In this document: piece by piece, positions 29,588 through 31,147 of the stretch
Position numbering within the stretch: the stretch's first letter is position 1
How the letters are laid out: the number at the start of each line of letters is the position of its first letter
Assembly (NCBI GenBank): GCA_028286885.1
Contig: JAQBQS010000003.1
Span: 1-44,606, forward strand
Length of the DNA stretch: 44,606 nucleotides
Source of the DNA: Patescibacteria group bacterium
GTDB lineage: Bacteria; Patescibacteriota; Minisyncoccia; Phycocordibacterales; UBA1006
Direction of reading: 5' to 3'
The notes under the pieces: generated by a model
Database searches by the model: none
The model's input: the letters and a program-made list of their open reading frames with translations, nothing else
What the model was told of the DNA's origin: nothing
Made by a program: the position numbers and the translations under genes

Positions 29588-31147
<1,560 letters not shown>

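Follow-up and report, generated by a model that had tools for sequence, protein, structure and literature searches.

The 30S subunit of this Patescibacteria group bacterium, and with it that of its whole GTDB order, appears to operate without an anti-Shine-Dalgarno (aSD) sequence, and it is likely that initiation on leaderless mRNAs made the aSD dispensable and that only a processing hairpin stayed under selection. In the window, i.e. the entire stretch of 44,606 nucleotides that was analysed, direct reading of the 16S rRNA sequence after helix 45 and the conserved GGATCA (31134..31139, + strand) gives TTTCAATTGAA, with no CCTCC and no CTCC. The part downstream of GGATCA is TTTCAATTGAAGATCGG: TTTCAATT at 31140..31147 (+) stands where CCTCCTTA would be, a replacement seen order-wide, and is followed by GAAGATCGG, with neither CCTCC nor CTCC downstream. 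The E. coli 16S counterpart of UUUCAAUU is CCUCCUUA. The earlier note on this DNA proposed that the aSD had been lost behind an intact helix 45, and both parts are borne out. Helix 45 (CACGGGTAGC-GGAA-GCTGTTCGTG, 31111..31134, +) folds as a stem of 10 bp, including G-U, with GGATCA next to it; the single 16S gene lacks CCTCC, relatives in the order lack CCUCC, and start codons lack Shine-Dalgarno (SD) sites. The resemblance of the tail to eukaryotic 18S rRNA (GGATCATTA), also pointed out there, is coincidental, close relatives reading GGAATATTTC, GGATTAATTC and others.

The gene that carries this tail is complete. The 16S rRNA gene (29588..31147, +) is matched over the whole Rfam model RF00177 (positions 1-1533 of 1533, 1350.3 bits) and is not truncated. 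The arms of its precursor processing stem, TCTTTTGTTTCG (29512..29523, +) and CGAAACAAAAGA (31319..31330, +), are perfect complements over 12 bp and pair in the predicted fold, which supports an intact transcription unit and a normal precursor. A candidate rRNA promoter, TTGACT and TAAACT separated by 16 bp, can be read upstream at 29260..29287 (+). The gene lies between tgt (27971-29197) and uvrB (32928-34997), with no 23S or 5S rRNA gene downstream in the window, and the rRNA genes seem to be unlinked. The genome, a 93% complete draft of 845,730 bp in 16 contigs, yielded one 16S copy; a second copy with CCTCC, which would have spoken against aSD loss, was not found in it. The gene thus shows what characterizes prokaryotes listed as lacking the aSD (Lim 2012; Amin 2018 list), an intact helix 45 and, behind it, a tail that has neither CCUCC nor anything close to it, together with the further marks of this condition, i.e. 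no other 16S with CCUCC, no SD enrichment and close relatives that are alike. The incompleteness or broken processing signals of a pseudogene are not seen in it.

The loss is a property of the lineage. CCUCC is present in 0 of 107 distinct tails from the same order (217 order genomes, read without bias to the tail) and is also missing from the 16S tails of 30 relatives examined; the aSD-less tail is shared by members of the same genus, family and order, and dozens of independently assembled relatives agree on it. A scan with the tail pattern of the order, which by design collects tails of this kind, returned more than 120 named stretches with an aSD-less tail, from Candidatus Nomurabacteria, Kaiserbacteria, Zambryskibacteria, Taylorbacteria, Adlerbacteria, Yonathbacteria and other Parcubacteria, and the bacterium is accordingly a CPR member of the Parcubacteria type. 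One MAG of an order member has, on a separate contig (G245:C6:259-322), another 16S whose tail is canonical (CCTCC) and whose helix 45 differs; this contig is probably a contaminant. The tail has the form GGAnnAnTTCnA throughout the order, and the conserved GGATCA before it varies (GGAAYA, GGATTA, GGAGTA). Beyond the order, the 56 families of the class that were sampled comprise 17 with canonical tails, 29 with lost, 7 with partial and 3 with mixed ones, while of about 100 tails read in the phylum's other classes about 88 keep CCTCC (counted by eye; six further matches were not 16S and were left out). Because genus, family and order share the tail while the other classes mostly keep CCTCC, chance or error is not a tenable explanation, and the earlier view of the loss was too narrow: far from being an isolated case, it spans an order and recurs in the class. 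In several relatives (G023, G033, G037, G038, G042) the 16S matches are split or stretched over 2.3-2.9 kb by introns or insertions typical of CPR.

A 16S tree (IQ-TREE, 74 rows, with the tail left out and intron-bearing rows excluded) requires at least six changes between canonical and other tail states, three of them forced by well-supported branches, the bootstraps being not fully settled. Such counts do not by themselves tell gain from loss; loss is favoured because the outgroups are canonical. The order falls within a clade of 41 rows (support 100/100) that contains no canonical member and whose early branches carry the intermediate tails TCTCCTTTTAAGGA, TCTCCTAGTAAGGA and ATATCCTAGTAAGGAT.

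The absence of the aSD is matched by an absence of SD sites. Gene prediction used a simple finder based on codon scores, free of any ribosome-site model, and gave 821 ATG starts in the bacterium's own genome. SD 5-mers precede 1.5% of these starts (n=821) versus 1.7% after shuffling, compared with 45% versus 7% at annotated E. coli starts, 20.8% versus 4.9% in an aSD-bearing genome of another class (G072), and 8.7% versus 3.6%, 5.9% versus 3.6% and 7.9% versus 5.0% in the aSD-bearing class members G435, G512 and G531, respectively. Positioned GGAG, GAGG or AGGA occurs before 2.2% of its starts against a background of 4.8%, a depletion also seen in the aSD-less G021, whereas aSD-bearing genomes reach 14.6% and 42.7% against 6%. 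The lack of spaced SD sites that had been noticed in the window therefore holds genome-wide, with SD 5-mers at the shuffled level, and the GGAGG enrichment before starts that would have told against aSD loss is not seen. Strong SD-like sites were counted at 4 of 821 own starts (16 at the far control position). Among genes beside the 16S of named aSD-less relatives the pool shows an unexpected excess, with such sites at 20 of 464 against 4 at the far control; ten of these SD-like ORFs have no Pfam match, and some look like orphan or secreted proteins (L148:1637-2386, L148:3385-4551, L123:7259-7840, L087:5884-6837, L084:2996-3703 and L136:6147-6500).

What does precede the start codons is a promoter signal, which the earlier reading of the sequence missed. 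Extended -10 promoters (TGnTAnnnT) sit 12 nt upstream of ATG in this genome: TANNNT is found at -12 in 17% of cases versus a background of 3.5%, and before internal ATGs in 0.6%, and TG at -15/-14 accompanies it in 77 of 120 genes, versus 21 of the 531 others (p 7e-49). TGCTA, TGATA and TGGTA are the top enriched upstream 5-mers. At the DNA level the strongest -10 elements cluster at -15 to -12 from the ATG with a sharp edge at -11, and many first genes have an extended -10 at -12 to -7; at strict thresholds the signal covers no more than roughly one in five to one in four first genes. No enrichment of a -35 TTGACA accompanies the -10 in the genome's upstream regions, although positions -35 to -33 are rich in T. 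With transcription predicted to start at the AUG or 1-3 nt before it, the resulting mRNAs should be leaderless, and a -10 at a fixed short distance from the start codon is the mark by which leaderless genomes are recognized. Start regions also fold weakly (-2.8 versus -6.6 kcal/mol in mid-gene). Because the aSD-bearing relatives G435, G512 and G072 show the same -10 peak at -12, leaderless initiation seems to be older than the loss of the aSD and does not alone decide it.

In place of the aSD and the beginning of the trailer lies a short hairpin, TTC-AATT-GAA (31141..31150, +), which likewise escaped the earlier reading. It appears in predicted folds, and its arms covary across the order (UUCA..UGAA, UUCC..GGAA, GUC..GAC, UUUUA..UAAAA). 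The bacterium's own version is weak, with 3 bp and an outer GAUC/GAUC stem (-3.4 kcal/mol, predicted fold). The hairpin score of the order is 8.19, versus 6.99±0.23 when 3′ halves are swapped between genomes (maximum of 300: 7.75) and 4.01±0.39 for shuffled tails. A downstream GGA is found with 15 of 18 TCC arms versus 1 of 71 TCA arms (Fisher p 3e-13, kinship ignored); counts of this kind ignore shared ancestry, and the UCC tails span about ten families of the order. For the other class families that lost the aSD the signal is weak (5.71 versus 5.27±0.48 swapped). In aSD-bearing CPR the aSD itself can pair with the 3′ trailer, as CUCC-UUUCUAG-GGAG or CUCCUU-UCU-AAGGAG, and the hairpin of the order is, judged by these sequences, the apparent continuation of this pre-rRNA hairpin. 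In another class, family f118 (G152, G166, G195, G207, G226, G248, G267), with CATCTCC..GGGAG, CATTTCC..GGGAA and CACTTCC..GGGAA, is one more lineage in which the aSD is eroding and the hairpin changes in compensation, CTCC..GGGAG beside TTCC..GGGAA forming a compensatory pair within one family. The mature 3′ end is expected at the hairpin, where a 16S as long as that of E. coli (14 nt counted from GGA) would stop in the loop, and the hairpin is probably used in 3′-end processing. It is unlikely that mature 16S instead retains the hairpin as a new helix at its very end, directly after helix 45, which would fill the exit site of the mRNA beside bS21, leave the 30S unable to take SD-type leaders and dedicate the ribosomes of the order to leaderless or unstructured mRNAs.

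Loss of bS21 together with the aSD, or sequestration of the aSD by this protein, is an idea that belongs to Bacteroidota-type initiation. As a cause of aSD loss in the present case, bS21 loss is rejected: a CPR-specific alignment, which raised the count from 28 of 47 in a first Pfam search, finds the protein in 46 of 47 genomes, with and without the aSD alike. Loss of S1 is rejected as well, an S1-like multi-domain protein being present in 28 of 28 genomes, as is loss of YbeY, present in 28 of 31. Genes for bS21 and YbeY, both of which act at the 16S 3′ end, are adjacent in this genome (G000:C1:22457-22699 and 22776-23048), and their matches also adjoin in relatives such as G021, G058 and G003; TTGTCA and TGGTAAAGT lie a few nucleotides upstream of the bS21 ATG. 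Era gave no match above the NCBIfam cut-off in any of 47 class or order genomes, whether aSD-bearing or not, the weak matches looking like other GTPases. Because it is absent from the aSD-bearing class members too and is missing from most CPR (PMC10582724), loss of Era is rejected as the specific cause and can have been permissive at most. The GAUCA sequence itself varies within the order. With SD pairing gone, and Era, the binder of GAUCACCUCC, gone as well, both known constraints on the tail are relaxed.

Several other explanations of the tail can be weighed against these observations. It is scarcely credible that the 16S is truncated, chimeric or misassembled, or that it is a pseudogene accompanied by a canonical copy that escaped detection: a 93% complete draft in 16 contigs leaves room for a missed copy, but the full-length Rfam match, the intact helix 45 and 12-bp processing stem, the recurrence of the tail in numerous independent MAGs of the order, among them the single-contig genome G021, and the genome-wide lack of SD sites speak against an artefact, in keeping with the earlier judgement that a truncated or chimeric gene was unlikely. 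A tail conserved across the order is also what a functional pairing site would look like, and mRNAs might pair with UUUCAAUU as a new SD/aSD system. This is very improbable and was rejected, since the complements of the tail are not enriched before starts: 6-mers pairing with it occur upstream 38 times versus 38.5±6.0 after shuffling, TTGAA 10 times near the start, 17 times far from it and 13.5 times after shuffling, and in G021 the complements are depleted.

Drift may, finally, have eroded the aSD of a reduced genome that had already given up SD use, with leaderless promoters an older CPR trait without a causal part and the hairpin a remnant of processing. The weak SD use of aSD-bearing class members, their -10 peak at -12 (seen in G072 too) and the repeated independent losses with different sequences all fit such a history, but the new tail keeps its form throughout the order and its arms covary, which indicates that it is not in free drift. 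We hold this account to be fairly unlikely, while recognizing that the leaderless route has much in common with neutral decay. We instead propose that leaderless initiation made the aSD dispensable. Initiation would use the 5′ AUG of leaderless mRNAs directly, and internal operon genes would depend on upstream regions that are rich in A and fold weakly, together with the S1-like protein or coupling. Leaderless initiation would already have been common in aSD-bearing relatives, and Era gone, before the aSD was lost, so that the sequence of the tail would have been free to drift. Selection would have kept the hairpin of the pre-rRNA, whose arms are supplied by aSD and trailer in other CPR (CUCC..GGAG), probably for 3′-end processing, a role beside which the retention of YbeY may be cited. 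Once mRNA pairing ceased to matter, the left arm would have lost its CCUCC identity, and the two arms would then have drifted together, giving UUCAAUUGAA in this bacterium.

The aSD passes for a nearly universal feature of bacteria, and gene finders and models of ribosome-binding sites often presuppose it. In genomes of an order that lacks it, standard gene callers may put starts in the wrong place, and extended -10 elements 12 nt upstream would serve as a better signal. A class with intact, partial and lost sister lineages offers a natural series for how the SD mechanism is lost, the proposed order of change being leaderless promoters and Era loss first and aSD decay later, with the processing hairpin kept. 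A full-text search for the aSD or SD in Parcubacteria or Patescibacteria found nothing on aSD loss. Nikolaeva et al. (MBE) reportedly address how tiny genomes lose the aSD, and CPR ribosomes are reportedly the subject of Tsurumaki et al. (RNA 2022), so part of the CPR finding may have been reported already. The loss of the aSD as such is known, and its scale here, the hairpin and the link to leaderless initiation look new. In two surveys the known cases grow from 15 to 128 and then 266 organisms, concentrated in Flavobacteriia, mycoplasmas and symbionts (PMC6107228, PMC10783764), which makes the earlier note's restriction to scattered bacteria such as reduced symbionts outdated. No CPR group is named among the losses in the main texts of these surveys (PMC6107228, PMC10783764).

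Mycobacterium and Deinococcus, which are rich in leaderless mRNAs, keep the aSD, unlike the bacterium studied here. What they and archaea share with it is a constant spacing between promoter elements and the start codon downstream (PMC4633059, PMC5397173). The aSD-less Bacteroidota (Chryseobacterium, Elizabethkingia, Riemerella, Weeksella, Blattabacterium) likewise have an intact helix 45, no CCUCC in whole lineages and no SD motif before genes (PMC6107228, PMC10783764). In Flavobacterium johnsoniae, a relative of theirs, 87% of mRNAs have leaders of more than 10 nt and starts are Kozak-like, with A-3 and A-6 (PMC6847099). The present genome has its strongest -10 elements at -15 to -12 from the ATG, which at the DNA level argues against mostly leadered mRNAs, and unlike the Bacteroidota it combines promoters 12 nt before the ATG with a covarying hairpin at the tail. 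Carsonella, Hodgkinia and some Mycoplasma resemble it in small genome, degenerated tail and lack of SD use (PMC6107228); these reduced symbionts and mycoplasmas are scattered host-bound lineages, whereas the loss described here concerns an order of environmental CPR and recurs in the class several times, with intermediates. Mammalian mitochondria are organelles in which the aSD was lost unrelatedly and ERAL1 is retained, whereas Era is gone in our bacterium. Their mRNAs are leaderless. Their 12S rRNA, too, is without an aSD (PMC10582724). The nearest functional parallel is found in the Nanoarchaeota, which combine leaderless mRNAs with a lost CCUCC (PMC10783764).
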